A stretch of DNA of 64,000 nucleotides from Todiramphus chloris collaris (lineage: Eukaryota > Chordata > Aves > Coraciiformes > Alcedinidae): assembly GCA_025345505.1 (NCBI GenBank), contig JANVCC010000076.1:5443577-5507576 (forward strand). The letters run 5' to 3'. Positions 15,995 through 62,534 of the stretch are shown piece after piece. Position numbers and translations under genes: made by a program. Each line of letters starts with the position of its first letter. Position 1 is the first letter of the stretch. The notes beneath the pieces are model-generated. The model ran no database searches, was not told the DNA's origin, and was given only the letters and a program-made list of their open reading frames with translations.

Positions 15995-16047
15995 CGGGGG
16001 GGGAGGGGTGGAGGAGGGGGCGGTGGAAGGTGGGGGTGGGCGGGCGG
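15995..16047 (+). repeat. G-rich tract with many G runs
   Basis: The plus strand has at least six runs of three or more G within about 50 bases, giving strong G-quadruplex potential. This is the template strand for SLC1A2. Confidence 0.7.
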
Positions 16048-21743: not shown

Positions 21744-22280
21744 TTATTTTAGATTCTTCTCAATCCAGTCTTTGAAGGGAAGAGCTTTGGTGTAGCCACT
21801 GTAGAGTTCTAGGCTGCAAGTTTTATCATAACCCCAGCTCACTAATCCCATCAGGTGCCACCTTAGCTCAGGAGATGCTTTTCCTGGCAAAGTTATGGCT
21901 GCAATCCCACCAGTCTCAGCAGGGCAGATGTTAGAAAAGGCTGTGTGGTCTTGTTTGGCACAGAACATGCTGTCAGTGATGCTGACTTGTATCCCATTAT
22001 CCTCATACTGTTGCTCACACAACAGTGAATCCACCATCCGAACAGCTCCCATGCGGATCGTGTCATTCTTGTATCCGGGATCTTTAATGTCAGCCAGTAC
22101 CTTCCAGCCAGTAACCATTATTCTTAAGTCCTCTGTGGATGAAGTCAAGTCATGAGAAGATGACAAGCAAATGGGTTGAACACGACTGCTGATTCTGGCT
22201 TTGTCCAAGAGTTTTATGACAGCTATATCAGAATCAAGTAATATAGGGTCATAGTTGGGGTGCACTATGATGGCAGAAAT
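21744..22280 (-). CDS. PAMR1: PAMR1 terminal coding exon: second half of trypsin-like domain
   Basis: This exon follows a CCTCCCCAG acceptor and has 537 coding nt ending in TAA. It begins [20 protein letters not shown], where the Asp of the triad sits in DSDIA. Later come [19 protein letters not shown], with Thr-Gly-Gly at the place of the catalytic Ser motif, [15 protein letters not shown], and the end [11 protein letters not shown]. The frame is fully open. Confidence 0.97.
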
Positions 22281-25200
22281 CTGGGGAGGAAACAGAGTAG
22301 GAAGAATTGTAGAGTTAAAAGCAATGACAAGTCATCAGCAGTCTTTCCATGATACTATAATAGTTATTAGTTTATTTTGCATACTTCTCTACCCTCCACT
22401 CCCAAACTGTCCTTTTCACCATGGTGCTCACTGAAGTGAGAAGCATGCAAGGATATCAAGCATCTTCTGACTTTTTTATTTTGGCTTGGGTTTCAGGACA
22501 GTTTTTATTGCATGAACTCTTCCTAATGAAAAGCAGTCAAGGACATTTTCATCAAAATGGGGAGTTAATGTGCAGTTCAAGATTTTCCACTGTTTTCTAA
22601 AAAAATTTTACCCACCATGTCATCTTCAGTCTGTAGAATTTGATTGGGGGGGCAGGCTTGGAATTAAAATGTTCTTATTAAAATTCAACCATCTTCCCAC
22701 CAAAAAAGAATACTAGCAATATATTACATAATGATGGGGACAAACCTTTACTCATAGTTACCTTGATGAAAAACTACAAGGATGGATAGGAATCCTATAA
22801 TGAAATATCAAAAAAAATATTTCCTTACAAGAAAAGTCTGAAAAAGCTGGAATTAGAGAAAGAAACTAAAAATACAGGGAAAAGAATTATATTAACTATG
22901 ATTTCTTGGATAAAATCCGTTAATTAACTCACATACCCCTCCACTCCAGAAAAAGAGAGACACACAGACAAAACTGCTGTATTTATCCTCATTTTGAGGT
23001 CTATCTAGTTCTACTTGAAAAAAACAAACAACTCTGGTGAGCCTGAGGTGCTATTTTTGGAACTGGAGTCAGACACAAACTTTTTGAGTTTAGAGATGTA
23101 CGGCCTTGGGGCTGAGATGTGAAATGCACTCATGGCATCAAACTGGGATCTAGCGTACAAGTGTTTCCCTCATAAATTATGCTAATCCCTTTTGACAGTA
23201 GCTGGCACCTCTTCTACTTTTTATTTTATTTTTTTTCTGGCAACATCATTCAAGACATTATAGTCCATAGAACCTAAGCTATTTTCTTAGTGATCTTTGT
23301 CAGGGCATGAACATATGAGTTGGACAATGTCAGGGGGATTTAATACACTACAGTGTGTTCCCTCCGTGTGCTATGACAGTTCTGTCAGTTGAGTCTCTAG
23401 ATATGCATTTCAAAGAACAGTGTGTAAAACAATATACAGCTCAAAGGATAACCTTCTTCTCCCCATACAAGAGAGATGTGATCAGCATCTATCTATGCTC
23501 ACCATTTTCCACTCCCAGCAGACTTACCCGCAGGTTCTGGATGGTTTTTTCATCTCTGTCATCATCCCTGTAGAATTTCCCCAGAACCACCTTGAGCTCT
23601 GCTGTCTTGAGCACAATGGTCTTGCCCAGGTCAGTGACACAGTGAGCTGCCACCACCACAGTACGCTCATTCACCAGGGCCCCACTGCAGATAAGGATCC
23701 AGGCCCCTTTCCGGAGACTATTCTCCTTCACCCCGTTGGCTGTCCGATAGATTGCTGCTTGCCAGGGCCACCTGGTAGAAGTCACTGTCTTCTGAAGGGT
23801 GATGTTTTCTGCTTTTCCACAGACTGAGGAAATGTGAACCAAGAATGAGGTAACGACTTTTCCCCACCAATAAATATGAATATCTCTCCTGAATCTTGCT
23901 TATGATGTGTCAAAAAAAATCAAACTGCAATGGTTAGAATAACGGACAGCTTTCTAATTAACCTTTGCCTTCAACCTTCAAAATTATAATATAAGAGTAT
24001 TTTATGTAGATTTTTAAATAAAAAAAAAAAAAACCCAAACAATTTTTTCATTATTATCTGAATTCCTGGCTGAATAGGAGTGTGGATTTAGCACTTCATC
24101 AGGTGAATTTTCATGACAACGTTATCAGGCTGCACTATAATTAGATGACTGCATAAAGAAACTGAAAGAACAACCCTGACTCTTGCTTATAATAAAACAC
24201 CATAAACCCAGCAATGCACTAAAAGTCACCCTAGGCAGTCATAGAGTAATTGTGAGGTCCTCTCTCAGAACTGACCTTAGCACAGATAATTTCAGGCGCA
24301 CGACAACAGACTTGTCTTACAACACGAACCTTGAAGCAAGTGCATCTAAATCAACAGCCATTCTGGGGAAAATAAAAAGCTCTGCCTTGTTCTAGGAATA
24401 CATTACCTGGGATAAGACCTGGGGTAAAATCTCTTGTATTAGGAAGGGTTTACTTCAGTTGAGTTACATTATGGAGTCACAAAAGTCTCTTCCCCCCCCC
24501 TGCCTTGGATGTATTGTGAAAAGGATTGGATGAAATATTTTTCAATGCATGAGATGATCTCAAAGCAAAACTGTAAACAAGGACTCTAGAAGTTTGCTTG
24601 TGGTTAGGATCTACTTTTCACAGTTTGCCTGACATCAGTAGTGAGTTGTACCAAATCTTGTGGTGTTCCTACTCTGACTTGCTGGTCACTAGTTCTGGAT
24701 AAGGTTTTACCTGGACTTTCAGTTTGCAATATGAACCATTCCTTAGCAGGGTATATTAAAGGAAGACTCTTTAAAATGCAGACTCTCGATTCTAGTGCTT
24801 AAACTTTGGTGTTTTAGTCAGCTGTGTGCCAAAGTATAGAGATGAAAGAAAAATCACACTTGCAGTAAATAATACAGGAAAACATGAACTGATAGCAGGA
24901 GAAAAAATCACTACCCATTTTGCTCGGTGAAGAAGTAGAAAAAATTATGGCAAATTATCATGCTGAAAGCTTGATCCCTTTACCATCAGCTGCACAAGTT
25001 CTACTGGTCAATGAAAAGAGCCATATATCTTCCAATTTTTATTGCTCCCATTTCCCAGCTGGAAGCATAGGCAGCCTACACCACTGGGCCTCCCTAATTA
25101 TCTAAGATGAATACACATCCTCTTCCAGCATCCACCCAGTGATGTGTGCGGTTTTTTCCCTTGGAGACTCACTTGGAATACACACAGGGGCTCTCCCACT

Positions 25201-28200
25201 CCATTTTCCTGTCTTCAGACAAGTCCTCCTGCTGCTACCCAGGCGGCGGTAGAAAGGAGAAATGCACTCATACTGGAGCTGAGTGTGCAAATGCTGGTAC
25301 CCTGGGGGCAGGTCTCCAAATGGCAGTGCTGGCTTTTTGGTTGGATAGATTTCAAGCTTTTGCTTGCTGAATGCAGATGAGTAAAGTTGATGCAAAGGTG
25401 TTTCCCTGTTTCAAGGCACAAAGAACACAAGGTAATAATAATAATAATAGTAATAATAATAATAATAATAATAATGCCATAGCTTCATCAGTAAAATCAA
25501 TAAAATCATTACCACAGCTTTATCACCAGCTGTGTTAAGTATCATTTAAAAGCGTACGAAGTTTGTGAAAGAATAAGGCAAAATATCATTCCAACATAGT
25601 TTAGCAATACTCCCATTTATATTCCATCTATTTTATTTACATATATATGCACACCTATATAAATACACATGTTTATAAATTTTCTATTTGTGTCTCTCTT
25701 TTTTTTTTTATTTTCATTTTACAATTTCTGGATTGCAACCAATTACCTTTGAATGTGGAACAGGTTTTGCCAAAGGACAGAGATACTGTGTTTTTAAATA
25801 AAGAAATTACATGGGAAGTTGGCATTGCCGTAATTAATTCTCACTAGAGAGGAGTTAGGCACATCTTTTCTCTAGTGAACAGTTTAGTAGGCAGTATTAG
25901 GAATCAATTCAGATTAAATCATGTTGATAAAGTTGCTTGATTTAGCAATTAACAGAGATAATTGCCTCACCACAGAGATTTCATAATTGCAATAATCACT
26001 AAGCTTCCATTTAGAAATTGTACTGATTAGCTGAAACATGGCACATAATTAAAAAAATAAATATATACATCAGCCTAGATATGGACCATAAGCTTGAGTA
26101 CAATCATACTTAAATCTTCATTGCTTAGAACGCGTCCCTTGCTCTAATGCTTAAAAGCACATATCTACAGAATAAAACTATTTATGTCTGAGAAATTCAG
26201 CAGGAAGTTAATTTCCACTGAGATTTCTTGTACTGCCTGCATCCAGAAAATCCATAAGAATGTGGGGGTTTTTTCACATGGTAATTCCATTTTTGATCAC
26301 AGAGAGACACAGACTGCCTCTGTCATATAGAATTTGTGAGGTGATATAAAACAGCACTTAAGGAAAGTAAAGTTATTAAGAACAAGAGCAGTGACAAGTT
26401 TCTTGTCTTTTGGAAGAAGGATGAGAGCTGCTGTGGTTATACTTAGACTGCCAGGGTCCCATTCCCTATTCACGTGTGACCTTGCAGTACTGCATAAGCC
26501 ACCCCTTGCCTCACTGTTAATCTACAAAATGCAGATCCTGCTTCAAGGGATAAAACCAGTCCACGAACATGAGATGCCATCATGATGCTATGGAGGTGTG
26601 CTTTCCTACAGCTGGTGCTAATATCTGAGTGTTTAGCATAAAGAGACCTGTGTTCAAAAGTGAATTGAGAATTTTCAGCAAGAACAATCCACTGATGGCT
26701 ACTGAAGCCTCCTCGTGGCTTCTCAAGGACGTCTCTACAATCATACATCACAGAGATGGAGAGTGGGAGAGTATTTGAGAAGTATGTGCTTGCCTCGTTC
26801 CTAAAGTCTTCTCTAGGCATGTGATACTGGCCGTTGCCAGAGAGGGGATATGGCCTGAGCTGGACTTTATTGGACCTGGTATTGCTGTTCTTAAGACCAA
26901 AGATGACGACAGTTCTTGCACTGCATCTAAAAATGAATGAATCATGTATTGCAAAAAAACCCCAACCCTGAAATGACAAATTACTACTTGGACAAAAATG
27001 AATCTGAACATTACAGCATAACTAATTCAGATTGGGTTTATTTCAAGAAATCAGCAGAAGGTTAAGCCCAGATGGGGTCCAATGTTTCATTCCTTCCTCC
27101 CCTCCTACCCTACTTCCTCCTCTGCCCCATGCTCACCCCAAACCCATCAATTTTGCAATATTGCTTAGGATGATGAAATTCAATGGGAGCAGATTACATT
27201 GCTATACCCCCTTCTCTCCTTCTGCTCTCCCCACTCATTTCTTCACTGAGACAGAACATATTCCTATTTTAAGACACATCATTAGCCCCAAGGAACTGTT
27301 CTCAGACTGTTCTCACAGCCTGTCACAAGCTTGCAAGCCTCATTCCAGCATCATCCAGTAGTTTGCACATCTCTAACTATGCATTTCTTCTTGCCTGCAT
27401 CCAGCAGCTTGCAAACCCATACTGAGTCAGACCTCCCCTCCCAGCAGCTCTCATTGCTTGGTTACCAGTGGTGCTGTAGGAATGGCTGCTCAGGCAGGCT
27501 AAACACACAGGGTGGAAAGGAGAGGAGGGGAAGAACAATTACAGTTTTTCTGTAAACTGTAGTTGAGATATTGCATTCTCACCTTGACTGAACCTGCATT
27601 GGAAGCACTTTCTGTCTCACCAGGTCAGAGATCTTTGGCTCTCTGCAGGCTAGAAAAAATACAACATTGCACAGTACTTTTCCACATTCACAGCTCAAGT
27701 GTTATGGTTCATACACATTTCCACTCTGTCCTCTCACTAGCTACAATGGACTGGATTAAGAGAAGAAGCAGTAAGTTATGTGTATTAAAATAAAGATATG
27801 TCTTGAAACATAAAGCCTTGGAAAAACACTTCCCAACAGATGACCAGGTCTATTCCCATCTACAACGGTGGAAGCAACTGAGTGTCTTCTGCACTGGTGC
27901 TTTCAACCATGGGGGAGGATTTGTCCATCATTGAGTCTGAATGCCAGATTTACACCACTACAGCTGATGGATTGGAGTGTGAGCAAACTTTTTGCAATAA
28001 TGGAATTATATAAAAAATACTTAATTTCTATCTGTGTAGCCATACACAGCTAATCCCAGTGACTTGGCATGCAGAGTGGCTGCAATATGTTACAGACTTC
28101 CAAGTCTGTTTGCTTGTGCACCCAATGGAAGGAGATGGAGACTCTGATTCAAAGGAACACCTCAGAGTTATCTGAATATGTGCAAAATAACAGAGGGTAG

Positions 28201-31200
28201 ATCCAGGATTTCTAATTTTGCATATTTGGTTTATTTACTTTAAGAGCAGGATAAAATATTCAGGTTTATCAGTTCAAATAACTCTGCCAGGATCTCCTTC
28301 CTGCTGCACACAGTGAAAGAAAGGAATCTTGCAGGATGGATTTTATCTGTACACCCGAGCACTTATGTTCTGTCAGATTTAACAATATCTAGCTCTTGGT
28401 GATTACTGTATATGTTAACCTTTATGTCACCATCAAAGTTAATATCAATAAAGATGCTTTCCACAAATTATTATCATCAATAAAGACACTTTCCACAGAT
28501 GATTATATACTCCATGGAGACAGTATTTCCATCTAAAATAACAGAATAAAGCAAATTGCCCAGGGGACAGACATTTTTTTTTTTTTTATATTAACATTAC
28601 TTCGGTTTAAAAAGAAATCCATTAAAATATGTGTCAAACAATTGCTTTGGGAAAATCAATTTGGCAATTCCCCAGCCCAAATTCATTCATCCATTCAGGG
28701 TTTCAGACACACTTAGAGTAGCTCCAGGTAAACAGTATAATTCCCTTTCTAGCGAAGTATTTAAAGATGTGTTTCAGTGTTTTGATGAGTACAGATAGCT
28801 TAAGCATGTTCTGAAGTGGTTTTCTGAGACAAATCTTCAAGCTTGCCACCTGCAGGCTTGGCTTTTTACACTCATGACTGGTCCCATTGACTTAACTGGT
28901 CCCTGTGACAGCAACTCTGATGAGACAATTATTTCTTTCTATTTCAGTTACCTGAAGTTAAATTTATTTCAGTTACCTCCTGATCTTCTTCGATTTTGTT
29001 CTTATGCAGGTCTAATCCTAGAATGAGTGTAATAAGGGTCTTAGGGAACATTCATTTCCATGTTTAAAGATGGAAACACCTTCTGGAATCACTGGCATCT
29101 TCTCTGTCTGAGTGTAGCAGCCAGCAGAGCTGGCAAACTATCAATCTCAGTATCAGGTGTCAGTCAGATGGTTTAATTCTTGTCAAAAAAAAATTATTGT
29201 TTGGCAAGTGGACATTATATAAAACAAATACGAGTAAAACCATAGCAGCTTTTGTAAGTTGTGGTAGAAAAAGACTGTACACTACCTTTTATGCAGATTG
29301 GCTGCTTCCCTGACCATTCTCCATCATCTTGGCAGGTCCTCTGTTCATTCCCACTAAGAACATACGAGTTGTTACAAAAGAAAGCAATGACTGTGCCAAT
29401 TTTTGCATAGCGTCCATTCAAAAGCCCAGTGTCTTCTACTACTCTTCTGTAGCCATTGAGTGGGCCACCAGGATCTGAGCAGGTTTTTTCATCTAGAACT
29501 AATGAGAGGGGAAAAAATAGTAACCATTTTATCAGGTTCACAGCATTACTTTCACCTATCAGATTGCTTGGCATTTCATTCAGATGTTACTACACAATCT
29601 ACACTTGATTAAGGATGCCTTTTCAAGACACATCTGGGATCTCTGTCTTCAAAAATATAAAATATTAAAGAAGAAATTACAATATACAGATATCTGTTCA
29701 TAAGACAGACTTTAGTCTCCACTGAAAGCGTTCGATTCTCAAATTGTTAAAAAGACCTTAAAATGTTATTAACAATCCTGAAAAAGAACCTTGACTTTAC
29801 ATGATGTCAGTGTCCCATTATCATTAAGAGAGCTATTTCAAGAGAATAAAAGGATGCACTTAAACTATTTGCAGGAAACAGGCCCTTGGCATTCTTCTCC
29901 TTTTTCTGTACTTTGAATACTTCACTGGACTTGGATAATAAAACAAGACTATTTAATTTTACTTTTTATGTTCAATTGCATTTCAGTGTCTTAGCACTGA
30001 GAGATCTCAATAATCCAAAGAAATATGGGAATTTAAAGAGAACACATATATATTTATTTACTGACACTAAAAATTTAATATGGAAAGATTACTCATGCCT
30101 ATAAAACCTCTTCTACTTTCTCCTTCCCAAAATATTCCCCTTCTTTTTATTTGTTGTTGTGTTTTTTCTGTCAATAATCTTACATTTTTTTGCCTAAATC
30201 TGGATGACAGTGTTCCCTATGTTATGCTAATAAATGCTTATCCCTGTATTTTTCACTCCTCTGCTCTTTTTATGTAGGAGCTGAAAAGGTACTTTTTTTT
30301 TTTCTCTTTGGATTTCATCTCAGTTTTCTTGTCATGTTGACAGTAATAAGCAATTCTGTTTAATTCCTCTGTCTGATGTCTCATTGCACAATAACCAGGG
30401 AACACCTAGTTTAGACAGCTAGTGTTGATCTGCTTCTGGAGGCCTGAGAAGACTGAAACATATCAATTGACCAGAAACGACCTCTTCAAGCCATCATTTC
30501 AGACTCGGCCACCTGCTGAGCCTCTTCACTTCAACAAAGCACTAACATATAACAAAGCATTTAAACTGTTACAAAATTCCTGTGAAATCAGCATGGTAAC
30601 AGTGCATAGGTAGGACCCTGTCCTGTCCCCATATCCTCACGTCACCAGACAGTGCCTAGCTCAGCAAAGCATATAAGCACATAGCTGACTGTAATAGTAC
30701 CAGTTCAGTGAAGAGCATATGCCCTTAGCACTGGCTATCTAAATGCCCTTATCATTGAGCATATCGTTCAAGCTAAGCATATATGTCAGTGCTTTCTTTA
30801 ACAACAACGGATTTTAGCATATGCTGAAGGTTATGTATGTACTTAAATATGTATTCCACGAGCCATATTCAGTAAACAAAGAGGACATCTGAACTTGTTC
30901 TCAACTGTGAGAAAGGGAAACTTGTTCTCAACTGTGAGAAAGGGAGAAGCAGAGCCCCGTGTCCTTTTAATTTGGCTCCATTTTTCTTCTCTGTACATCA
31001 CACACTCTCTCACTCGTGAACCACAAGTAACTGAGAACTTGATAGCAGCTAAAGACTACATGGAATCACCCATAGTACAATGCTTTACTTGCAAGTTACT
31101 CTCTGCACTGATATCTAGCCTAGAGGCATCATCCGATGAGCAGAGTGCATGTTTCCAAATGTACTCAAGCTTGACCAAATAAGTCAGTGAAGGCCTTCTT

Positions 31201-34200
31201 TTATTTCTTCTTATGCCTAACAGGAATTTGAACAGTAATTCTCTTCTTTGCTTAAACTCAGGGTTATGACTTCTTTTGATGGATTAAAACCAAAGAGAAA
31301 ACATGTGGGAAGGAGAGACCCAAGTTACACCACTTAGTACTTCAGTAACAGTCAAGTCTAGAGACAGATATTTCAGTGGACCTTTAGCCAGGAACATCAT
31401 GTAGCAGAGAATTTAGCACAATCCTGATACTACATTTACTGCAACTGGAGACATTTTCTCTAGACAGAAGAATGTCTATTGCGTTCTCTTTCAGAAGAAT
31501 TTACATACAGCTCTTTCACAACACTCCCCAAAAAACCTTACATTGTTTGCAACAACAGACTTGTAAAAGCACTCTTCCAATTGACACAAATTATTTTGGA
31601 ATATGGAAATTAAACTGTGCAATGCAAAACAACTAAAGAAAAATTAAGTCTCTTTGGATGAGAAAAAGGGGCTTTGAATTTCATAGCTGAATCAATGTGA
31701 ATGGTAGGCATGCCAACTTGCATAGCCATGAAGAAAGGAAGTTTCTATTTTATCAGTTTTTCTCTAGGATGGGAATTCTATTGAAATAAGAGTCTACTCT
31801 TATGCAGTAAGCCCCTGATGACCTCCACAGAGTGCACCAGACTTCTGCAGAGAAGGTGCCATAAGTACATTGTAATGGAAATAGCTATTCATTGTTGCAT
31901 GATGCCACTCATTTGGTTTTGGTCCTAGACATTTCAGTCTCTGTGTAAGAAGGATGTATGCCTAAAGTCTTTGAGGAAATTATTTTTCAGTCATTTGATG
32001 TTTCAGTCAGACCTTTATATAAGCAGGCCATGAAGCCTTAAGCTCCAGCAAAGGAAAATAAGAATCCCTACAATCCCTACTGTTTCTTGAATACAGGAAG
32101 ACAAAAGAACATCATGTTAAGTCATGGATCTACAAAATTTCAGAGATTTGGATATTCTAGTTTCATCGGAATACATTGGCCAAAACATTTGAGAAGAATC
32201 AAAACTTAAAGTGACCTTACCACATTCAGGATGATGTGTTGACCAAATCCCATCAAGCTGACAGTAGGCAACACGGCTGCCTTTTAAGCTGTAACCTGCG
32301 TTGCACTTGAAGAAAACCTGGGCCCCGTATTTAAAGTCATCTCCTTCCACAATACCATGAGCGGGAGCACCTGGAGTCCTACACATCACCACTGACAGTT
32401 CAGATATTTCAAAAAAATCCACTTTATTACAAAAACAGGACTGTGTTAAGATGATTCTTTATTTAGAACACTGAAAAAACAGTTAAAATGGGCACAGGAG
32501 TCAAAATTACAAGACAGGTATTTGCCAATCTTTAGAAAGTTGTTTAGATGTCAGCTCTACACACACTTACATATACACTGCTTTTCAAAACATCTAGACC
32601 CATTCAAGTTCAATGGGATTACTCAGAAATGCGAAGTGATCATATGTGTAAATGTTTGTATCATTAGGGCTTATTTGGTCGTAATTTGAATTTGAAGCAC
32701 TTTCCTTCTTAACGGGAGTTATGAATGAACTACCATGCTTGGGCAAGGAAAAAATTTAGACCCTTAAAAGTCTTATATTAAAATTCCTTCAAATTGTTCC
32801 TTCCACTTTTATATAGTTTTTCAGGAAACCTCACTGAAATACTAAAGCATAATTATTTGTATAGATCAAACATCATCATAATGACATTAAAAAGGAACCT
32901 TGATATTTACCCTTTCCATGGGTTTTTTTTTCTCTATTGGGAAAATACTTACAATGGTCTATTTAAATACTGCAAGTAGTAAGTATTAGATTAAACATCA
33001 TAAGCAAGATTTCTCTGAGAGCATCAAACCAGCCACACTAAATCAGAACAAATGTCCATCCAGTAGAGAAAACTGTCCTCAATGGTAGTAAACAGTGGAT
33101 TTGACGGAAGGAATATAAAAACAGAACAAGTGTTATCAAATACTTTCATGGCATATTCTGGCAGCACTCTGCAATCTGGGGCTCAAGGACTACCTCAACT
33201 ACAGTGGTATTTTTGGTATAACATCTCCTGGTGATTTTTATTTTTTTAAACATTATTTGTCAGTATTTTCTAAACTCAGCTACATACTTGGTGTTCACAA
33301 TATACTGTGACTATGAGTTCTACAGACTAAGTTTTGTGTGAAAAATACACTGCCTTCTTTGGTTTGGCTTCTATCCTGCCACCTGATAATTTCATTTGAT
33401 GCTCCATTATAAGAGACAGAGAACGTCCATGCCCTACTCACCTTCTCCAAGTCTCTTTTTAAGACACATTTTCTGTATGTAGAAATCATACATATGTATT
33501 TCTATATGTAGAAATGACAATAATACAGGAAACACAAGTTTTAGTATTTACAGAGTTATCCATCTTCCTGTGTGTCTCTGGCTTTACCTGTCCATTCATT
33601 GTGGAAAACTGCATAGGAAAGGATTCAGTGAGAGATTTGATACGTATACGTTTTGTTTTGTTTTGTTTTTTTGTCTGGGAGCTATCATACTCCGCTGAAG
33701 ACAGATAGATGAATGCTAAAGAGAATATCCTTACTTTATGCTTTTAGAATTTGATTTTTTTCTTGTTTGCCTCATAGGTAGTTGCTTACCAGCCTACAGC
33801 CAAATTTTTTTCAAGAGGAATAAACCATTCTAAGTCCTCAGCTGTGTAATCCTTACACAGAACACACATGAATGCATCTATTTATGTGGATTGTGGACCA
33901 TCCAATTATTCACATAAGGAAGAGATTCTTGAGTAGCAGTCCTAAAGCAGCAGCATTCACAAGAACAAGTCTCCACAGAAATTCCCCTCAATTTACAGAT
34001 TACTACAAACAGGGCCTAGACTCACTACTCCAAATCAAAACACATCCAGTTAGGGGAGCTCAACATTTCCTCTTGGCTGCAAGTGTTGTGCATCAGTGTC
34101 ATCTTTGGTGAAGAAATAATGATAAAAATTCATTCCTAGACATTGATATTTCTCATGTGAAATATAGGCACACATACATATACATGCATATATAGGTGCA

Positions 34201-40200: not shown

Positions 40201-43200
40201 GGCCAGTGACAAGTGGAGTCCCTCAAGGATCAGTACTGGGACCAGTCTTGTTTAACATCTTCGTCAGCGACATGGACAGTGGCACTGAGTGCACCCTCAG
40301 CAAGTTTGCCTATGACACCAAGCTGTGTGGGGCGGCTGACACGCTGGAGGGAAGGGATCCATCCAGAGGGACCTCGACAGGCTGGAGAGGTGAGCCCATG
40401 CCAACCTCATGAAGTTCAACAGGGCCAAACGCAAGGTCCTCCATCTGGGTCGGAGCAATCCCAAGCACCAATATAGGCTGGGCAGTGACTGGCTTGAGAG
40501 CAGCCCTGAAGACAAGGACTTGGGAGTGCTGGTGGATGAGAAGCTCAACATGAGCCATCAGTGTGCACTTGCAGTCCAGAAAGCCAATCATATCCTGGGC
40601 TGCATCAAGAAACGTGTGGCCAGCAGGTTGAGGGAGGTGATTCTCCCCCTCTACTCCACCCTTGTGAGACCTCACCTGCAGTAATGCATCCAGTTCTGGA
40701 GCTCCTGTTACAGGAAAGATGGATGTGCTGGAACGTGTCCAGAGAAGGGCCATGAGGATGATCAGAGGGCTGGAGCACCTCTCCTGTGAGGACAGACTGA
40801 GAGAGTTGGGGTTGTTCAGTCTGGAGAAGAGAAAGCCTGGGGAGACCTTATTGTGGCTTTCCAGTATCTGAAGGGGGCCTGCAAGAAAGCTGGGGAGGGA
40901 CTTTTTAGGCTGTCAGGCAGTGATAGGACTAGAGGGAATGGATTAAAGCTAGAGATAGGTCGATTCAGGTTAGACATTAGGAAGAATTTCTTTACCATGA
41001 GGGTGGTGAGACACTGGAACAGGTTGCCCAGAAAGGTGGTGGAAGCCACATCCTTGGAAGTTTTTAAGACCAGTCTGGATGGGGCTCTGAGCAACCTGAT
41101 CTAGTGGGAGGTGTCCCTACCATTGGCAGGGGGGTTGGAACTAGATGATCTTTAAGGTCCTTTCCAACCCTGACAATTCTATGATACTATAATTCTATGA
41201 TTCTATGACATTAACCTTCTTGCTGCCACCTCCCTGAACATCCCATCTCTCCTGTGCTGGAGAGGGCTGCTGACTAGGAAGCCACACACTGACAAGCAGC
41301 CCAGCTGTTTTCCACCAGACCCTGGCAAGAGCTGCATGTGAATGAGAACAAGAGAAGCTTAATGGCATTAGCTTTGCTATGTGATCATCATTTTTCCCCG
41401 CAGTAGGAACAGACTGCTGGAAACTGGACCACTTTGGAGGACAGGTGGTCTTAGTCAGGACCTTCTGAAAGAAATGCTTTCCAGGGTTGGTGTGTGTTTC
41501 CAAAGGCCATGTCTGAAGGGGCTGATGATGTCTAGCATGCTTACTTGTCTTCCTTGTTGCCCCTCAGAACTTTTACTCTTTGGAGCTACCAGGCTCTGCA
41601 TTGTAGGTGGTTACAACTTTTTTAACCAGAAATTAGAAGGAGGTCAACAAGGAGAGCCAGGAGTGCTAAGGTTTGGGTTGAAAATTACTTACTTCAAAGC
41701 AAGAGTATCAAAGCAGAGAACAAATACATGCAAACACTGCAGCAGACCCTATACAGGACAGGGCAAGGAAACCGCTGTGATAAAAAAGTATTCACAGTGA
41801 TGACTGTTTTCTGGAATAAAGAGACTCTTGGACCTCAAAGAACAAGGACGCTCTGAGCAGCTGCAGTAGCACTGCTCTGCTTGGTCATTTCTGTTGCTGC
41901 AGACTCAGCAGCGAGTGGGTGAGGCTTTAGGTGGGAATCTCAGATGTACCTCCAACCTCTACATTATCACAGGTGCTTCAGCAGGCAAGTCTGATACTAA
42001 CAGCCAGCTCCACCAAGGTGCACACATTAGTAGCTAAAAGGTGCCTAAATAGGTGCTAAATAGGTGCCTAATTGTCATTTAGGAAATGGCCTTCAGTATC
42101 AAATAGAAGTCCTGGAAGTGTAACAAGGATTATTCCCCAAAAGCATCACCCTGCAATGCAGTAGATTCCATTCAGGTTTCTAGCATGAGAGGATTTGGAT
42201 AAACTGCCCTCGCTCCCTGTGTTTCAAAAGTGAGAAAACTCTCCACCCTTTTTTGTGCCTCTTGTGATGACCCAGAACACAGCCTCCCACCTCCATGCCC
42301 AGCTCCATCCACAGCTCATGGAGAAATGCTGAGGCAGACAATTCACCACAAAGAATTTTTGCCTTAATTTATCCCCCATGAAAGAGTCCTGGAAGTTCAA
42401 ATCTCCTCTCATTGTTGCATTTTGCTAGTGCTCATATTAATTCTGGAAATGTCAAAGGAAATCATAACAAGAGTAGCTGATCAGCCAACCCCAAGTACTA
42501 GAGATGGTGGATTTCCACTCCTGATCTCTGGGCCTCTTCGCTTTTGCAGTGGTTCCACCAGCTAGGAATAATTACACAAAACTATGATGTAATCCCTACT
42601 GAAATCCAATTCTTTTCATTCCCTTCCAGCCAATTGGAGCTCACCCCTGATGTTTTCCAGCTCCCTGCTTCTGTGAATGAGACCGTATCCATGTGAAAAT
42701 ATGCTTGGATCACCCACTGTGGTTTATTCATCCGGAGGCAATTTGGAGGTTGTTGCTTACAATTAGACACTTGATCTTTATCAGTATTGTTCTAAGCCCT
42801 TAGAAAGCTGTGTCTCTGGATACAACCTTTCCGGTACTTGGATGGCCTATTTAATTACACAACTGAACCTATTTGTGCATGGGATGCCGGAGTGAGTGAA
42901 ATCCTTAACGATCCCCAACATTCACTTTCTCTCTATCAAAGGCAAGAACTAATATTTAGAATGAGTTCCCCAATGGGTCCCTTGGAAAACAGTATCACAC
43001 TGCAGAGGAGAGCACTCTCTGCTCAAGGGTGACATTGTAGGGCAACATGGAAGCTGATATGCTCATTATTGTACCAAATGACAAAGGAGAGTAAATCATC
43101 TTGAGGTGTTTCATTTTGGAGATGTCAGTTTTCCAGCTAAACAGGGACAATGCCGAAGCAATGCCGGATGCGAAAGACACTCTAAAGAATTGCATAATGC

Positions 43201-52200: not shown

Positions 52201-55200
52201 AGCTCTAGCCCAGTGACTTTGAATATTGCACAATGCTCCTTTCAGCTAATAGGCATTATATAGCCATTATCACAGCATATATTGCACAATTTTTACTCCC
52301 ATCTCTTTCAAGCCCTGTTATATGAAGAAATTTGCTCAAGAGTGGAGAACTAAATCATTAGAACAGAAATTGATTTGATCTTATTTGAATTCAGCTATTT
52401 TACAATTCACTTGGCAGGGTAAAACCAGGTGTGTGAGTGCACACAGAGTGAGGACCACCAACAGAGATACGGACAGAATCTACCCTTTTTCTATTTTTTT
52501 GATCCCAAGTCTCTGTCATCTATGGTGCCAGAACTCTACCTTTGAGGTGGCTGTGAGGGAAGACAAACTTCCTATAATTGACTCTGGCTAGAGCACCAAG
52601 CACAGGGCTCAGCTTGGATATGTGCTTTTAGAAGAGAACAGTTGAGCCACAGAGTAGATAATAGCAGGCAAGTATATCTCTCTGTCTGATAAGGCTAGTT
52701 CTTTACAAGATTTCTTGTATGCTGTTTCCCAGCTCCAATTCTGTTTTACCCTTTTACACACAGATATAAAGCTCCAGATCTATTTAGTGGAAATCTGCAT
52801 AAACTGCAAGCAACTTGGCTTAAAAAATGCCACAGGAAGCTCAGTGCATTCTCTGGCACTGTGACTGACCTAACTTACATATATCAAAGACACTCCTAAG
52901 AAGTAGTGACCTGCAGCAGTGACAACCCTGGAGGCTGGTCATACACACAGTGCCTGTACTCACAGTTTTCACAGCGATTCCCTGTATAGCCAGCCAGACA
53001 GGCACACTTGTAGGTACCACTTTTGTCTAGAATGCACGTTCCATCATGAAGACACGGAGATGAAGAACAAGCTATAAAAGAAAAACAAGAACATTCATGG
53101 TCTCTCTTAGGATGGAGGTCCTATCTATTTTTCCTCGTGATGGTTATGTCTCAGAGTAAATTACATATTCTGGTTAAAAGTTAGGAAGACACAGTAAAGC
53201 ACCTAATGCATGTCAAAAAGCCTTCTGCTCTTCTTTCTTATTTAATGGAGATGGGATCTTACAGGGATGGGCAGTTCTTTTCCCAGCACTCATCTCTTAC
53301 TCTTACCATTTACCTTTAACTGTAGTCAAGCAGTGAGAAAGGTTTGTGGAATAAAAATAATTTACAGCAAGCTCCAACAGTGTTTAGAGCTTAGCCTAAA
53401 TTAAACAAGTTTAATATCAAACTACATTTCTCCTGCCATTCACCCCAGAGCTTAGGGATAAGTTCTGGGATCCATGGTTCCAGTGGGTTTTTAGGGTCTC
53501 GAATCTTGTCATCCCAGACTTTGGAGTTGCTTTGCCCCTGAGAAGCACTTCTTTGGTGTTGGGTTAAGGAAGCTCTGAATGGGTATGATAATGCTAAGTC
53601 TGCCAGGGAAGCTATAGCACACCACAAATCTAGCATCATTCTGTATATATTAGAATGAATTAATATCAGAATGTGTAATTGTGTCATTTAATATCAGAAA
53701 ATTCCAGTGTCCACTAACACATACACTTGGTTTTTTTGTGCTGGCTCTAAGGGGATATAAGTGACCAGAACATAATTTATTCTCAAAAAACCCAAATAAA
53801 CCATTTCCACTTAGATTATTTTCCAGACTGAGTGTGGGGTTTAGCAGACAGAAAATAGAGCCAAAATGTCAAGATATAGATCCACTTTAAGGTTCAAGTA
53901 TCTCTAAAACCTGAGTAGTTCAGGATCTGATGCTCTGTTTCAAGTTCATCTTAACAAAACAAGACTCTACAGCAAAATTCACATTTGGATCCATATCAGT
54001 TCAACTTCAGCTCACTTCGACTGCAAAACTTATTCCTTGCAATCTTAGAGAATTATCCAAGCATGCTTGATAACTTATAGGTTAAACCTTTAACCATAAT
54101 TGCTCAAAAGATCTGTATTCTAATTCATTTACAGATCATCTTTGTTCTTCACTGCTAAATACACTGATTACTTCAGCTATAAGAGAAATATGAATCTTTG
54201 TACCAGCCACTGAGTGTAGCAACCACGAGCAACCCACTGTGGGGACCTATGGTGAGGTTGTGTACTATTATACTTAAAGCATTCTCTGTGCCGCAGTCCA
54301 GAATGACAGAATCAGCAGTTTTCCTTGTGAATACTTCACTTGAAGCACAAACTTTGAGTTCCTTCTATCCAGATGGCAAGAGACAAGAAATTTATAGATG
54401 CCACATATGGATTTCTCTGGAGGTTTCATGTGTTGATGTAACAGCAATTTATACATGTCTGGGCAACGAATATCTTCCAAGTCTCACTGAAGACTAAGGT
54501 CTGACTAAGGACAGTAATTCATTTGTTAAAAGGAGTAAATATTTGGCAATTGTACTGTATCAAACTAATGTAAAGTGACACTGAGAAAGGGAAGGAGAAG
54601 CAGAAGAGCCTATACAGACCAATACTTTGTAGTCACTGGTTTGAAGCCAGTAAACTTGCAGCTTTGTCTTTGCCCCAGCTTTGTCTTATGGTTCTGTAAA
54701 AGTAATCAGGTCAAGTGAACAAGGGTAAGTGCCAGTTACTGTCCTTGAAACTGCCTGATACTCCAGAGCACAAAATATTTTTCTTTTTAAAGGAGTCTTG
54801 ATTTCCTGGCTTCAGTCAAACAACATGGCACAGTACTACAAAAGGTTAAAGCCCCTACGTTGTGTCAAAGATCACTAGCTTGTGGGTACCGAAAGTAAAA
54901 CTTTATTGGAATTCTGTAACAGGCTTTCATCTAACTAGATTCAGCATATGTCTAATCCCTAAGAGATCCTGATGCCTTTCCATCTGGTCCCCATCATTCT
55001 CATCTGAAGTCTGTTGAGTGAATTCTAGTCACTCGTGCCAATTGCTGACACTTGGCATGGGATGGGACCTACACCTGCTTCCAGACCAGACAGTGTAGCA
55101 GGTTCTGTGGTTTCATCCTTTAATAACTACAGTGACCTTCCCTAAAGGAGATTTAGGCTTCGCAGCTTTTTTTTTATCAATAAAACCTTTCTGGCAGTAG

Positions 55201-58200
55201 AGCCAGTGACCTCTGTGCAGTCAGTGCCACTGCTTCAGCAAGCTATGAGTTATTAAGCCAGCACAGAGCTCAGAGGAACGCAAGACAGAAAGGGAAGGAA
55301 TTCAGTTCTGACAGCAGAAGACACTTCTTCAGTCCTCTCCATTATACCACTACAGTGCTGGGGACATCAGATCACCTCCATGGCTTGGTCCACATCCTGT
55401 AAGCACAAGTGCTGCTGCTGCTGTCACCTGCAGCACAGGGAATTGCTCTAGCAATCCCTGTGCAATCTGTTCTGAGGACGTTGTCTTTTCCACAGTGCTG
55501 TGCACAGAGGGAAATTTCAGGAGAAATGATTCAGTTTGCAATGTGCTGCCAGAGCTTTCAATCCTGTGCTTTCCCCGCTTTCAATCCTACGCTGCCCCAT
55601 GCACACAGTATTCTTCTCCTAAGCTGTACTGCTGGCCAAGTTAATGCTTCACATAAAAAGACACTGGGAGTGTTTTAAACGCCCTTCACTGCAGCTACAC
55701 ATTAGACCAGAACAGCCCCATAATAAAGTGCAAAATAAGACCTCCTCACAAACTCTAAGGAGTCCCTTGCAATGTGCTCTGCGTGGATTACCACACTTGC
55801 ATCCACCCAGCCTCAGAATAATTACTGCGAAAAATGGGGTGGAAATAAAAGCGCTCAACAGTATTCGAATACCAAATGTTCCCTGCTGGGCAGAGAAAAC
55901 AGAATCAATGCAGCTTGCACCATATGGAAAATGTTAGTTCCCTGAGAGTAGGCAGCCCTTACACAACATAGCCCACACCACATTCATTTGTTCTATATCA
56001 CCTCTCCTGCTGTAAGCCCAGGCGAACTATCAAGAAATAGTTCACAGCTCCTGCTGTGTTACTGACAGGTACTAAAGGTAACATTTGAAGGATGGGGCAG
56101 GCTAAGAAATGGCATAGGCACTTCATCCAGCAGTGTGCACGTTTTGGATTGATAGCTGCACCCCTGATCATTGCTAACAGCTGATCCACTGTAGGTTTGT
56201 GTATTTATATAAGGATTGTATAACCTAACTAAACTTCCCGAGCCAGACATACCCTGGATGACCTCATGAAACGTGGGTCACCAGAGTGTGTGGAAGGCAA
56301 GCTATGGTGAGTCATAGATCCTGAAGGATTTATCTATGGCAAAGCAAGCACACTCAGATTATCCTTCTGTGCCAGGAGTACTGTGTGGGCAGATTTAACC
56401 GAAATTCCCTGCATAGCTGAACAAGGAAGATACACAAAAAGCACAGAGGCTGCTTCAAACACAATGGCAAAATGAGGAGCCAGCTACACTCTCAATAATA
56501 TTTTGCAGTGAGAAAGAAATGATGGCAAGCAGTGTGGGGGACTTAAGCACCAAGTACTACCAGAAACACGGGAATTCTGGAGCCCTGCTTCTGTCATTCA
56601 TAACACTGAATTCATCATGGAATGGGAAATGCCTTTTTTTTTTTTCCTTAAAGGAAATAATCTGTCCTTTGTACACACTTTTTTTTCAAAGCCAACACAA
56701 GAGTCATGTCAGGGCATTTTCACTGAACTAATTATGAGGCTTTGAATCAGGTTTTTTTTCTACTTGAGACAAGTGACTCTGCTCCTGCACACAGAATTGA
56801 GAAATTCTGCAATTGCAGATACACGCGCACCTTCCTCTATTTCCTTCTGTGCAGACTAGTTCTCAGATTCAAACAAAAAAGTCTCACAAAACAGCAGCTT
56901 TTCTGTTTCGGCTGATATTCTTGTTCTTCACGCAGGTAGAAGGAATTCAGTCTTTGTTAGAAGAGCCTCACATTCACATGCCATCTGATGGCTTTTGAAT
57001 CTTCCCTGCACTGAATTTGTGTAAGTTGCTGTTGGCAACACAGCATGAAAGTTTTTAATGAAGCAAAACAGGGAGAGAGATTAGAGAAATTGAATTAATG
57101 AGTGTTATGTTCCACTTCTGGATTATTTTACCTGTAATTTCTTCAAAGACAGCATGAAATCCATCAAAGTTCTTGGATCCATCGGACTGGAAGAGGACAT
57201 GGAGTGAAGACCCAGTGCTTCGGATGGGAGGCGGCCTCTCATTTCCACAGAATTTCTTAATTATTTGGCTGTCCAAATTGTCTCCATCACGGACCTCCAC
57301 ATAGTCATACTGGCACATGTAGTCGAACTCCAGGCTCAGCATAGAAAATCTTGGGGAACAAGGACAGACAGTCAGATTGCATAGTCTCACCTGTGCACCC
57401 TGACTCTGATTTATCTGGATGTTTAGATATGTTAGTGCCTCCCCCTGATCAATGAATCAACAATGAAGTCCTCCTTGCTTCAACTCAATTTTTGCATCAT
57501 GATCCTTGGAAGCTAGCTCAACTCTACACAGTTGCTCCATGAGAATATTTAAGTGGCAGAACAGTGAAGCCCAAATTGAAGTCAGAGTCTCTTCACATGC
57601 ATCAGTTCCCCAATTACATTGCTAGAACTTTCATCTAGGGTCAGACACCATAGGGGGCATATTTCTATTGTGACTGTTTGATAAAAATTGTGGGTTTTTT
57701 CAGTTTCTCCTAAATAAAATTCCAAGTACTGAAAGTAACAGTATCAAAGAGACCAAGGCTCAAAATCTATTTATACTGTGATGTTAAGTCAACAATCAGG
57801 GGTACAAGGAAAGCTTGGGGATGAAACAGAAGCAGAAACAGGAAGAGAAAAGGAATCCAAAACACTACAGCACATTTTGCATTAGAAAGCAAAATGGTAG
57901 TAAATCCCCAATGCCCGGCACTTGCCCTTCTTTTTGAGGGCAGAAATAAGTGACAGAAGTTAGTGCAAAAGGGAAATATTTGAAGCCCTTTCCCACAATG
58001 TCCTTTCCTAGCTTTGATCCAGCCACTGTGCGAGGCTCTTGTTCATTAACAGCAAAGATATATACTACTGTTTGAATTCAGTGGGGCATAAAGCCAAAGC
58101 ATCCCATGAGAATATGAATGAGAAACACCAAGTGCCTCTGGAGAAGGAGCAATGGCCAGGGGTGCTGGTCCCAGCCTTGGTACAGCAATTAATAATGAGA

Positions 58201-61200: not shown

Positions 61201-62534
61201 AAAAACACCAGGTCACCCCCTCGTGAGCTTGTGCTGTGCAAATCATCCACCTGGCACATCTTTTGAAAACAAGGTAGGTACAGTATCTACTGTATGCTCA
61301 GTATACCTGCTGAGACTGATGCAAAGTTGTGTCATGAGAACACAAAACTCCTCCACACAGCTTTGCTCTTCTGTGTCTCCTACACATTTCTCCAGTCAAG
61401 ATGCTCCAGTGCTATCCAGGAGGTAACTGCAGCTGCTCATAACTACACAACAGGCTTGCATTTGCAAGTCTGAAAAAAAGGGCATCAATGTGGGAATACC
61501 ATAAGCTCTTCTTTTCTGTTCAATTGGTTTCTCTTCCTCTTGTTAAAGTCTCCTTAAACATACGGAAAGAAATCTATTTTTGTATCTAGCGTAGTTCTTT
61601 TGCCTGGGCTCCCAAGCTGGCAAAATACTGATGTGAAGGCTTTAGCTACTGATTTTATTATCTTAGCTAGTGGGTTTTTAGCTAGAGGGACTTGCCCTGC
61701 CAAGTCTCCTGCTGCCTGTGTGAGCTGTCTGCTACATACATGTGAAAACAGTATTAATTCACACAACTAGGGGCTCTCATGCACTAGCCTGAATGCCAAA
61801 TTGAGAACTGTGAGCTTGAATCAGCAGGGGCAGGTTAACAGGTCTAAACATACACAGGTCAGAGGAGTGATACTGGCAGGAGAGCCAATCACATCCAGCA
61901 GACATAGGAATGGTAAGAGGAATAAGAAAGGCTGGTAGAGGACTGGGCTGGTAAGATGAGTGAAAGAAAAATAAAAGAGAGAAGATGTAGGCTAAATGCA
62001 AGGCAGATCCCATGGGCAAATTACTCCTGGCATAAGACATCATATCAAAATATTCCTACAGCTTTTCATCAAAGAATGTCTTAGTTCAGCCCGTTCCACT
62101 CTTCACAAAATATTGGGTGCTTTGGTGTCAAGGTCTTTAAGAGACCTCTAGAGAGATAAATTGTGTCCAATAACTGAGAAACTCTCCTTAGCATCCAGCT
62201 GTCCTAAATAGGAATTGAAGGCACAGTATTGATGATTTGTGAAGTGGCTACCCATCACAAACTAGACCAGGGGAAAGAGCTGAGGTACCAAATACACAAT
62301 GGTGGCAGTACCTTCACTGCTCCAAGGCTCCCAGCCATTAACCCTCATTGACTCTTGGTTATTCACACGCCCCAATGTCCACCAGAAACCAGTGCTGTCT
62401 AAAAGTCAGTATGACCTACCTTAATTCAATGTTAAATCCAGCTTGAACATGAATAGTCCATTCACATCGTGCATTCAGTGGGTAACCCTCCAGCAAGATC
62501 TGACCTCTAGAAGCCCGAAGAACCTGCCCACACC
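21744..62534 (-). CDS. PAMR1: PAMR1, inactive serine protease (3' nine coding exons of a spliced gene)
   Basis: This is a multi-exon gene read from high to low coordinates. Exons are 62420-62534, 57132-57349, 52964-53071, 32221-32391, 29286-29498, 27583-27649, 25173-25405, 23528-23823 and 21744-22280. The predicted domain order is CUB, EGF-like, sushi (extra), sushi, sushi, and a trypsin-like domain. Every exon has an AG acceptor and a GT donor, and all phases join without a frameshift or stop. About 594 codons are present without the extra sushi exon and about 651 with it; the first figure agrees with my memory of the human protein from its CUB domain to its end. In the protease-like domain the His (VAAHCV) and Asp (DSDIAV) regions remain, but the Ser motif reads AETGG instead of GDSGG. 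This is the known mark of PAMR1 as a pseudoprotease. The family is secreted and linked by name to muscle regeneration. The signal peptide and N-terminal Cys-rich exons are outside the window. Confidence 0.95.
22281..23527 (-). other. PAMR1: PAMR1 intron between the two protease-domain exons
   Basis: 1.25 kb, phase 0, AT-rich. Nothing else recognised. Confidence 0.9.
23528..23823 (-). CDS. PAMR1: PAMR1 exon: first half of trypsin-like domain
   Basis: This 296-nt exon runs from a TTTCCTCAG acceptor to a GGGTAAGT donor, leaving in phase 0. It starts ICGKAENI and has [29 protein letters not shown] and [20 protein letters not shown]. The catalytic-type His lies in AAHC. No activation cleavage motif of the IVGG type is present at the start of the domain; WPWQ follows a short unrelated stretch. 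This fits an inactive protease. Confidence 0.96.
23824..25172 (-). other. PAMR1: PAMR1 intron before the protease domain
   Basis: 1.35 kb, phase 1. It contains an A homopolymer at about 24020-24033 and no other feature. Confidence 0.9.
25173..25405 (-). CDS. PAMR1: PAMR1 exon: linker and rest of last sushi domain
   Basis: This 233-nt exon begins after a TTGAAACAG acceptor and ends at AAGTGAGT. It contains [61 protein letters not shown] and APVCIP. This is the PAMR1-specific insert followed by three sushi cysteines. A TAA/ATA microsatellite starts about 26 bases upstream of the acceptor, in the zone where the branch point and pyrimidine tract should be. Confidence 0.95.
25432..25475. repeat. 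(TAA/ATA)n microsatellite
   Basis: About 14 trinucleotide units with one interruption (TAATAG). It lies about 26 bases upstream of the acceptor of the PAMR1 exon 25173-25405 when read on the minus strand. Confidence 0.95.
26460..26535 (+). mobile_element. Faint MIR-like SINE fragment
   Basis: The order GTGTGACCTTGCAGTACTGC, CTTGCCTCACTG, then CTACAAAATGCAGAT follows the MIR core pattern (GTGACCTTGGGCAAGT, CCTCAGTTTC, TGTAAAATGGG). Many differences, as expected for an ancient copy. Judged by eye only. Confidence 0.4.
27583..27649 (-). CDS. PAMR1: PAMR1 exon: short linker starting the next sushi domain
   Basis: This 67-nt exon was found from the protein pattern, as it is too short for an ORF scan. 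It follows a TTTTTTCTAG acceptor and ends at AGGTGAGA. It reads [20 protein letters not shown] followed by Ser and two bases of Arg. It is entered in phase 1 and left in phase 2, so skipping it would shift the frame. The first cysteine of the last sushi domain lies here and the other three lie in the next exon. Confidence 0.94.
27650..29285 (-). other. PAMR1: PAMR1 intron before the 67-nt exon
   Basis: 1.6 kb, phase 1. It contains a 32-bp imperfect tandem duplication and a run of 14 T at 28574-28587. Confidence 0.88.
28444..28507. repeat. Imperfect tandem duplication of 32 bp
   Basis: ATCAATAAAGATGCTTTCCA at 28444 recurs as ATCAATAAAGACACTTTCCA at 28476, with a few differences. Confidence 0.85.
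29286..29498 (-). CDS. PAMR1: PAMR1 exon: sushi domain (first in the mammalian order)
   Basis: This 213-nt exon runs from a CTCATTAG acceptor to a GGTAGTG donor, phase 1 at both ends. It includes [33 protein letters not shown] and [12 protein letters not shown], giving the four cysteines and the Trp of a complete sushi module. It matches the human NCSDPGG-to-ICIK segment closely. Confidence 0.95.
29499..32220 (-). other. PAMR1: PAMR1 intron between the extra sushi exon and the next sushi exon
   Basis: 2.7 kb, phase 1. Apart from the 27-bp duplication at 30893-30946, no feature was recognised. Confidence 0.8.
30893..30946. repeat. Tandem duplication of 27 bp
   Basis: Two copies beginning ACTTGTTCTCAACTGTGAGA at 30893 and 30920 differ only at the last base. 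This implies a recent event. Confidence 0.95.
32221..32391 (-). CDS. PAMR1: Extra sushi (CCP) exon inside PAMR1
   Basis: This 171-nt exon has a CTGTCAG acceptor and a GGTAAGG donor. It encodes 57 residues with the sushi pattern of four cysteines ([29 protein letters not shown]) and the conserved Trp in GIWST. It is phase 1 at both ends, exactly what is needed between the EGF exon (ends phase 1) and the next sushi exon (starts phase 1). The reading frame is open and the strand agrees with the gene. I do not recall this module in mammalian PAMR1, which has two sushi domains, so it may be a lineage-specific or alternatively spliced cassette. What is seen is a coding-like exon with correct splice sites; that it is used in mRNA is inferred. 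Confidence 0.8.
33643..33672. repeat. (TTTTG)n-like simple repeat
   Basis: Repeated TTTTG pentamers followed by a T run. Confidence 0.8.
35422..35592 (-). mobile_element. CR1 LINE, 3' UTR fragment
   Basis: The plus strand starts at the complement of the CR1 end (CAGAATCACAGAACCATTTT), continues AAGGTCCTTTAAGATCATCA and stops after CCACCACCTCCCTGGGCAGC. It is a 170-base, strongly 5'-truncated copy. Confidence 0.92.
38322..38408 (-). mobile_element. MIR-like SINE fragment
   Basis: The plus strand runs TGGGGAAGCTATTAGCACAG, AGATATCAAGTGATTTACCT, GAAGGCAAACAGTGAGTGAG, TGGCAGAGCT. This is the order of the reverse-complement MIR/CORE-SINE consensus (GAAACTGAGGCACAGAGAG, AAGTGACTTGCC, CACAC, GTGGCAGAGCTGGG). 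It is the best of the MIR-like stretches here. Judged by eye. Confidence 0.55.
39742..41208 (+). mobile_element. CR1 LINE, reverse transcriptase part and 3' end, dead
   Basis: It starts inside the RT at [15 protein letters not shown]-like sequence. It continues through [51 protein letters not shown] and [15 protein letters not shown]. It ends in LVRPHLQ-, [11 protein letters not shown]-like frames and a 3' tail with three ATTCTATGAT-like units. Frameshifts and stops are present, and the FADD catalytic motif reads FAYD. It lies antisense to PAMR1. Confidence 0.94.
44785..44850 (-). mobile_element. Faint MIR-like SINE fragment
   Basis: The plus strand order GCATGACTTGCCCAATTCAA, CAGT, then GACAGAGCTC recalls the MIR reverse consensus (GTGACTTGCCCAAGGTCA, GGCAGAGCT). 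Weak and judged by eye. Confidence 0.3.
46117..46172. repeat. A-rich low-complexity tract
   Basis: Poly-A blocks broken by C (AAAACAACAACAACAAAAAA-type). Confidence 0.85.
46568..48993 (-). mobile_element. CR1 LINE, 5'-rich copy with ORF1, endonuclease and a large internal RT deletion
   Basis: Reading on the minus strand, the ORF1 esterase-like region (48993-48562) comes first. The ORF2 start and endonuclease follow ([20 protein letters not shown], then [10 protein letters not shown], 48236-47952), then the endonuclease-to-RT linker (about 47.5-46.9 kb). A jump at about 46.82 kb leads straight into the 3' UTR, which ends at 46568. Most of the RT and ORF2 end is missing. It lies in the sense direction of PAMR1. 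Copies keeping this much 5' sequence are unusual, since most CR1 copies are 5'-truncated. Confidence 0.9.
48562..48993 (-). pseudogene. CR1 ORF1 remnant, GDSL-esterase-like region (open for 143 codons)
   Basis: The frame is open throughout and reads [39 protein letters not shown], then [22 protein letters not shown]1 ORF1 proteins are known to carry an esterase-like domain; here the GDSL Ser motif (IGDSLL) and a later SSIPP block can be seen. The fragment lacks the N-terminal part of ORF1 and the end of the esterase, so it is a relic without a sign of function. Confidence 0.75.
50881..50894 (+). repeat. Homopolymer of 14 C
   Basis: An unbroken C run in the long PAMR1 intron. Confidence 0.85.
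51508..51525 (+). repeat. Homopolymer of 18 T
   Basis: An unbroken T run; on the gene's sense strand it is poly-A. No SINE body was seen next to it. Confidence 0.85.
52964..53071 (-). CDS. PAMR1: PAMR1 exon: EGF-like domain
   Basis: This 108-nt exon lies between a TTTTATAG acceptor and a GTGAGT donor. It encodes one complete EGF-like module with six cysteines: CSSSPC, HDGTC, YKCAC, and a final C in GNRCEN. It is phase 1 at both ends, like most EGF and sushi exons, so it could be skipped or joined to other phase-1 modules without a frameshift. The next PAMR1 exon I recognise is about 20.6 kb away, the longest intron in the window. Confidence 0.94.
53072..57131 (-). other. PAMR1: PAMR1 intron between CUB and EGF exons
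   Basis: 4.1 kb, phase 1. No repeat or exon recognised. Confidence 0.85.
57132..57349 (-). CDS. PAMR1: PAMR1 exon: second half of CUB domain
   Basis: This 218-nt exon follows a CCCCAAG acceptor and ends at a GGTAAAA donor. The reading includes [19 protein letters not shown], then [23 protein letters not shown] and [12 protein letters not shown]. The acidic LEFDY and [10 protein letters not shown] segments resemble the calcium-binding edge of CUB domains, and the two cysteines form the second pair. It ends with one base of an Ala codon completed by the EGF exon. Confidence 0.95.
57350..62419 (-). other. PAMR1: PAMR1 intron within the CUB domain
   Basis: 5.1 kb, phase 2. No repeat or exon recognised. 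Short open frames have no coding-like pattern. Confidence 0.85.
62420..62534 (-). CDS. PAMR1: PAMR1 exon: first half of CUB domain
   Basis: This 115-nt exon has a CTCAG acceptor just above 62534 and a GTAGGT donor below 62420. It is entered in phase 1 and left with two bases of an Arg codon. It translates as [20 protein letters not shown] and continues through a CEWTIH segment. The two cysteines are the first disulfide pair of a CUB domain. It is the most 5' PAMR1 exon I can find here. The upstream intron runs past base 64000. Confidence 0.93.

Follow-up and report, generated by a model that had tools for sequence, protein, structure and literature searches.

Background

The MASP/C1r/C1s proteins, with the order CUB-EGF-CUB-sushi-sushi-protease, are built from a modular kit akin to that of PAMR1, likewise with a trypsin-like domain at the end, but they have two CUBs, an active protease and a role in complement; they are not known to contain a cassette sushi of the kind described here. 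Work on PAMR1 itself, which is secreted, has centred on the two-sushi protein of human and mouse (in muscle, cartilage and tumours). The human protein is 720 residues long, with two sushi modules and with its EGF module joined directly to the first of them. Optional sushi modules are described in an unrelated receptor: in the GABA-B receptor, the isoform-specific sushi modules that set GB1a apart from GB1b steer placement and partner binding (PMC12314290).

Here we analyse a 64,000-nucleotide stretch of DNA from Todiramphus chloris collaris (hereafter the window), in which an additional sushi exon (hereafter exon X, positions 32391–32221) lies within PAMR1. Taken together, the evidence makes it very probable that exon X is a true exon of PAMR1, used as a cassette through alternative splicing and ancestral to tetrapods.

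The PAMR1 gene and exon X

The minus strand of the window contains PAMR1 from the CUB domain through the stop codon (Table 1). The gene model was obtained by tblastn with a human PAMR1 sequence, after which splice sites were set by eye and by script. The search returned 11 alignments: the eight exons of the two-sushi form, exon X (a 35% sushi match) and two sushi cross-matches. The joined frame is open both with exon X (651 residues) and without it (594 residues), in each case plus the stop. The N-terminal residues, about 127 as judged from a 778-residue gull protein (P0005), were not found in the window by tblastn with the human sequence; together with the 651 residues they give a predicted full-length protein with exon X of about 778 residues.

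The assignment to PAMR1, already made in a sequence-only reading of the same DNA, is borne out by the Pfam domain order of the window protein (CUB-EGF-sushi-sushi-trypsin, as in PAMR1) and by its identity to Aquila PAMR1 at 639 of 651 positions. Without exon X, it is identical to the Theristicus and Calonectris proteins at 589 of 594 positions. Active trypsins carry a GDSGG motif; at this place the window protein has ETGG and is without the catalytic serine, and the records of the matched PAMR1 proteins bear the name 'inactive serine protease'. Judging from this motif, the protease domain is inactive.

Table 1. Positions of PAMR1 exons and of the optional exon X extension in the window
Feature	Positions	Strand	Evidence
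PAMR1 CUB exon a	62420..62534	-	tblastn, splice frame
PAMR1 CUB exon b	57132..57349	-	tblastn, splice frame
PAMR1 EGF-like exon, upstream of exon X, ends in phase 1	52964..53071	-	tblastn, splice frame, Pfam
30-nt 5' extension of exon X, optional, distal acceptor ..AATAAAG/TG	32392..32421	-	annotated isoforms
Exon X, cassette of 171 nt for an additional sushi (CCP) module, phase 1 at both ends	32221..32391	-	Pfam Sushi, protein matches, splice frame
PAMR1 sushi-1 exon (sushi nearest to EGF in the form without exon X), phase 1 at its start	29286..29498	-	tblastn, splice frame, Pfam
PAMR1 linker exon	27583..27649	-	tblastn, splice frame
PAMR1 linker and last sushi (sushi-2) exon	25173..25405	-	tblastn, splice frame
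PAMR1 trypsin-like exon 1	23528..23823	-	tblastn, splice frame, Pfam
PAMR1 trypsin-like exon 2, to stop	21744..22280	-	tblastn, splice frame, Pfam

Exon X is entered through the acceptor ...AACTGTCAG/TG at 32391 and left through the donor G/GTAAGG at 32221 (the slash marks the splice junction), in phase 1 at both ends. Read on from the final EGF-exon base, its 171 nt encode 57 residues with four cysteines and a tryptophan. The module covers the Pfam Sushi profile (PF00084) from position 1 to 56 of 56 with 49.9 bits (E 4.2e-13), against a curated cut-off of 20.7 bits. Its sequence relatives in the PDB (90 sequences at E 0.001) are sushi proteins, e.g. complement receptors 1 and 2 and factor H, which are named from the best 60 of the 90. 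The CCP fold is a beta-sandwich with disulfides C1-C3 and C2-C4; AlphaFold models of the 778-residue protein and of the 56-residue module were too poor to bear on it (mean pLDDT 38 and 44).

The sequence-only reading had placed a sushi exon with four cysteines and a tryptophan at exactly these coordinates, with a phase 1-1 fit to the EGF exon on one side and to the following sushi exon on the other, and all of this stands. Its description of the acceptor as good does not: the polypyrimidine tract is only 47% pyrimidine at -20 to -4, the lowest value among the ten acceptors tabulated (65–100% in the others). A symmetric exon with a weak acceptor has, on sequence grounds, the look of an optional exon, and because exon X combines both features we infer that its use is regulated.

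The 23.5 kb between the EGF and sushi-1 exons hold 211 open phase 1-1 AG..GT intervals of 120–260 nt. Five of them bear a sushi signature, and all five are overlapping versions of exon X, which argues against a chance frame. That the exon is real beyond chance is settled by orthology, i.e. by the protein matches across tetrapods.

Distribution and conservation among tetrapods

A 71-residue query consisting of exon X and short flanks matched 75 proteins out of 77 candidates. Over this region, identity is 92–97% in 46 of the 60 bird rows and 80–89% in the 14 that remain, of which nine have a 10-residue extension. Turtles reach 87–90% (three rows), crocodilians 74–86% (three rows), and lizards and geckos 77–82% (seven rows); the marsupial Petaurus has 70% and the salamander Pleurodeles 61%. 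The Petaurus and Pleurodeles records stand for clusters of 28 and 8 members, respectively, each judged from that one record.

We then compared exon X proper with the next sushi exon. Identity of exon X to the window is 95–98% in the six birds compared. It is 54/57 (95%) in Chelydra, 50/57 (88%) in Crocodylus, 49/57 (86%) in Zootoca, 41/57 (72%) in Petaurus and 35/57 (61%) in Pleurodeles, while the corresponding values for the next sushi are 61/69 (88%), 61/69 (88%), 51/69 (74%), 55/69 (80%) and 44/69 (64%). Seventy proteins supplied 32 distinct exon X sequences, none of which departs from the two inner cysteines or the tryptophan. The two outer cysteines formed part of the pattern used to select these sequences, and three of the 73 models with a full exon X (P0065 and P0066 among them) fall outside this four-cysteine selection. 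The frame and cysteines are thus kept in other birds; their loss there would, by the sequence-only reading, have refuted its proposal. A restriction to birds or sauropsids is not supported, as Petaurus and Pleurodeles have exon X too.

These data bear on the possibility that exon X is a decaying relic, included by splicing noise alone. The weak acceptor and the wide occurrence of forms without exon X among the proteins listed would agree with decay. So would a comparison of seven segments, in which exon X shows the lowest identity in both Petaurus (72% versus 77–92%) and Pleurodeles (61% versus 64–83%), a result that weakens any reading of strong constraint. However, beyond the inner cysteines and the tryptophan, the 32 sequences agree in at least 15 further columns, and in turtle, crocodile and lizard the identity of exon X keeps pace with that of the constitutive sushi. 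We therefore consider a relic very unlikely, and a functional cassette remains the preferred reading.

Origin and loss

In all groups, including Petaurus and Pleurodeles, exon X occupies the same place and begins with an identical LVMCRTPG, so a single origin, before the tetrapod ancestor, is favoured; exon X then predates amniotes. Independent origins in sauropsids, the marsupial and the salamander, e.g. from copies of the following sushi exon, could draw on the 34% identity (42 bits) that exon X shares with the sushi beside it. Yet the salamander exon X is far closer to that of the window than exon X is to its neighbour, and with the shared place and start this leaves separate gains with hardly any probability.

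Given a single origin, the presence of exon X in Pleurodeles and Petaurus implies that it was neither gained by sauropsids nor lost by mammals as a whole, and the two options offered by the sequence-only reading hold in neither case as worded. Any loss lies, to judge from these sequences, within mammals, and a loss on the way to placentals is likely, judging from the human protein, in which EGF joins the first sushi directly. A query with the salamander exon (10 candidates, five hits) missed even turtles that have exon X, and the lack of hits in frogs, fish, monotremes and placentals is therefore uninformative.

Forms with and without exon X

Isoforms were tallied over 152 proteins that comprise the exon-region matches and the best 120, mostly of birds, of 945 full-protein matches. 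Exon X is present in 61 of them, present with the 10-residue extension in 12, partial in two and absent from 77. By species label (115 listed), exon X occurs in 54, a form without it in 74 and both in 15. Because the records are mostly gene models and cover the best 120 of 945 matches, these counts are not frequencies, and species listed only without exon X may still have it. The proposal of a three-sushi PAMR1 of about 777 residues agrees with models of 777–778 residues in many species, which stand beside models of 720–721 residues without exon X.

One could argue that exon X is constitutive in birds and reptiles and that the models without it are annotation artefacts derived from mammals. 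Many of the records without exon X are predicted, and mammal-guided annotation could conceivably miss it; the named records that contain it are also mostly computer-predicted gene models. Against this, both forms occur in the 15 labels mentioned, several times as numbered isoforms of one species (e.g. Taeniopygia, Passer domesticus, Crocodylus and Agelaius), and the exon X acceptor is weak. Constitutive use is accordingly improbable, although it is the least improbable of the alternatives to an optional exon. On the evidence of these sequences, exon X is very probably an optional exon of PAMR1.

Chicken is counted among the 15 labels through our own assignment of P0024. This record (source 'lgn') comprises 61 contigs, the longest of 3,387 nt, and encodes 653 residues with exon X; without exon X it is identical to the chicken two-sushi protein P0121 at 596 of 596 positions. 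In the window, the corresponding PAMR1 exons are spread over about 40.8 kb. A contig of at most 3,387 nt must then derive from spliced RNA, unless it reflects a retrocopy, which we rate unlikely. Since we read the 'lgn' contigs as assemblies of RNA reads, P0024 appears to represent spliced RNA that contains exon X; it is the strongest, though indirect, sign that exon X is spliced in.

Several models with exon X are odd: P0065 and P0066 start inside it and are without its first cysteine, P0071 is without a stretch of it, and P0075 has the second half only. In P0066 (Patagioenas), the first CUB exon is joined into exon X, with loss of the first cysteine. In P0056 (ostrich), the EGF exon is skipped and exon X is kept in frame. 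Models of Aquila, Dromaius, Anolis and Camarhynchus that contain exon X have differing short N-termini just before the CUB exon (upstream of 62534, minus strand), hinting either at an internal promoter tied to exon X use or at model noise.

Alternative acceptors

A second AG, at 32421, lies 30 nt upstream of the exon X acceptor; it keeps the frame and lengthens the product by 10 residues. Annotated isoforms from eight passerines share these 10 residues, as do a partial tropicbird record and Crocodylus, and Alligator has a differing 10-residue version. Identity between birds and a crocodilian, in what is intron in the other forms, may reflect coding use or a shared splicing element.

Similar stretches were seen elsewhere in the gene. 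Upstream of the linker exon, the intron at 27650–27680 (minus strand) matches a longer isoform from the lizard Hemicordylus (KGLCNTVFFLAC; 83%, E 3.8e-4) and is a second candidate upstream acceptor in PAMR1, like that of exon X. At 29499–29580 (minus strand), the sushi exon after exon X starts further upstream in models of Morus, Aegotheles and Sylvia, and the 18 residues of the Morus stretch are matched by the intron reading of the window. Crocodylus and Alligator models (P0047, P0069, P0070 and P0076) contain a 26-residue insert between CUB and EGF, for which the window offers no convincing counterpart (lowest E 0.32).

Other features of the window

A cysteine-spacing pattern applied to all six frames, which misses the known last sushi exon, revealed no further sushi exons in the window. 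It matched exon X, the next sushi and two further stretches, 59860–59977 (plus strand) and 28222–28082 (minus strand), both judged by eye to be chance. Likewise, tblastn of the window with exon X of five species found nothing beyond exon X and the two known sushi exons with an E below 0.007 (42773–42850, plus strand).

A CpG island lies at 15500–17300 (74% GC, CpG observed/expected 0.84), and a minus-strand MASTEG start at 15450 runs immediately into a stop unless spliced. Both features fit the start of SLC1A2, the neighbour of PAMR1 in human. Two related long open frames at 7366–7869 and 40310–40912 (minus strand), without a Pfam match, are probably repeat copies. A further open frame at 48562–49041 (minus strand), inside the EGF-to-exon X intron and also without a Pfam match, resembles a bird retroelement fragment.

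Proposed role

If exon X use is regulated, splicing regulators would decide its inclusion by tissue or stage, and the outcome would be a PAMR1 of 721 or 778 residues, or of about 788 through the acceptor 30 nt upstream. Inclusion would insert one more sushi unit into the rod that separates EGF from the remainder of the protein, making it longer, and would place an added binding face beside the EGF module, which could tune partner binding or reach. Since the protease domain appears inactive, any effect should concern reach, folding or binding rather than catalysis. From its domain class, exon X may thus serve as a spacer and an extra binding face in some tissues or stages; the AlphaFold models lend this no support.

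A more specific scenario, which we regard as evenly balanced between true and false, is that PAMR1 of the tetrapod ancestor had a three-way regulated sushi cassette beside EGF (skipped, short or with 10 more residues) that was lost in placentals. If so, functional work on human and mouse PAMR1 has dealt with a shortened protein without an ancestral partner-binding module.

Comparison with known systems

Exon X and proteins of 777–788 residues are already in public annotation under PAMR1 (e.g. Chroicocephalus isoform X2 and Taeniopygia isoform X1, both 778 residues, and Chelydra, 777 residues). These annotated three-sushi proteins show the same gene and the same exon place, at the identities given above for the six birds and Chelydra, and the window differs from them in nothing of substance: it has the same exon in another bird. 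Exon X is an old tetrapod exon and no bird novelty; it is real, conserved and already annotated. Titles, abstract beginnings and passages of the literature on PAMR1, its old name and sushi exons yielded nothing about exon X, which suggests, though weakly, that no publication deals with it.

The mammalian two-sushi PAMR1, represented here by the human protein, shares with the window the order CUB-EGF-sushi-sushi-inactive trypsin, with 72–94% identity per shared segment, but has no exon X between EGF and its first sushi. If the two-sushi form is the sole placental form, the exon X module is beyond the reach of human and mouse models, and its optional inclusion in birds and reptiles offers a ready way to test its role.

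The GABA-B receptor provides a precedent for the proposed role. The sushi modules that distinguish GB1a and GB1b occur in one isoform only and serve partner binding and placement instead of core activity (PMC12314290). By contrast, the receptor is an unrelated protein, and the choice between its isoforms is made by promoter use together with splicing.
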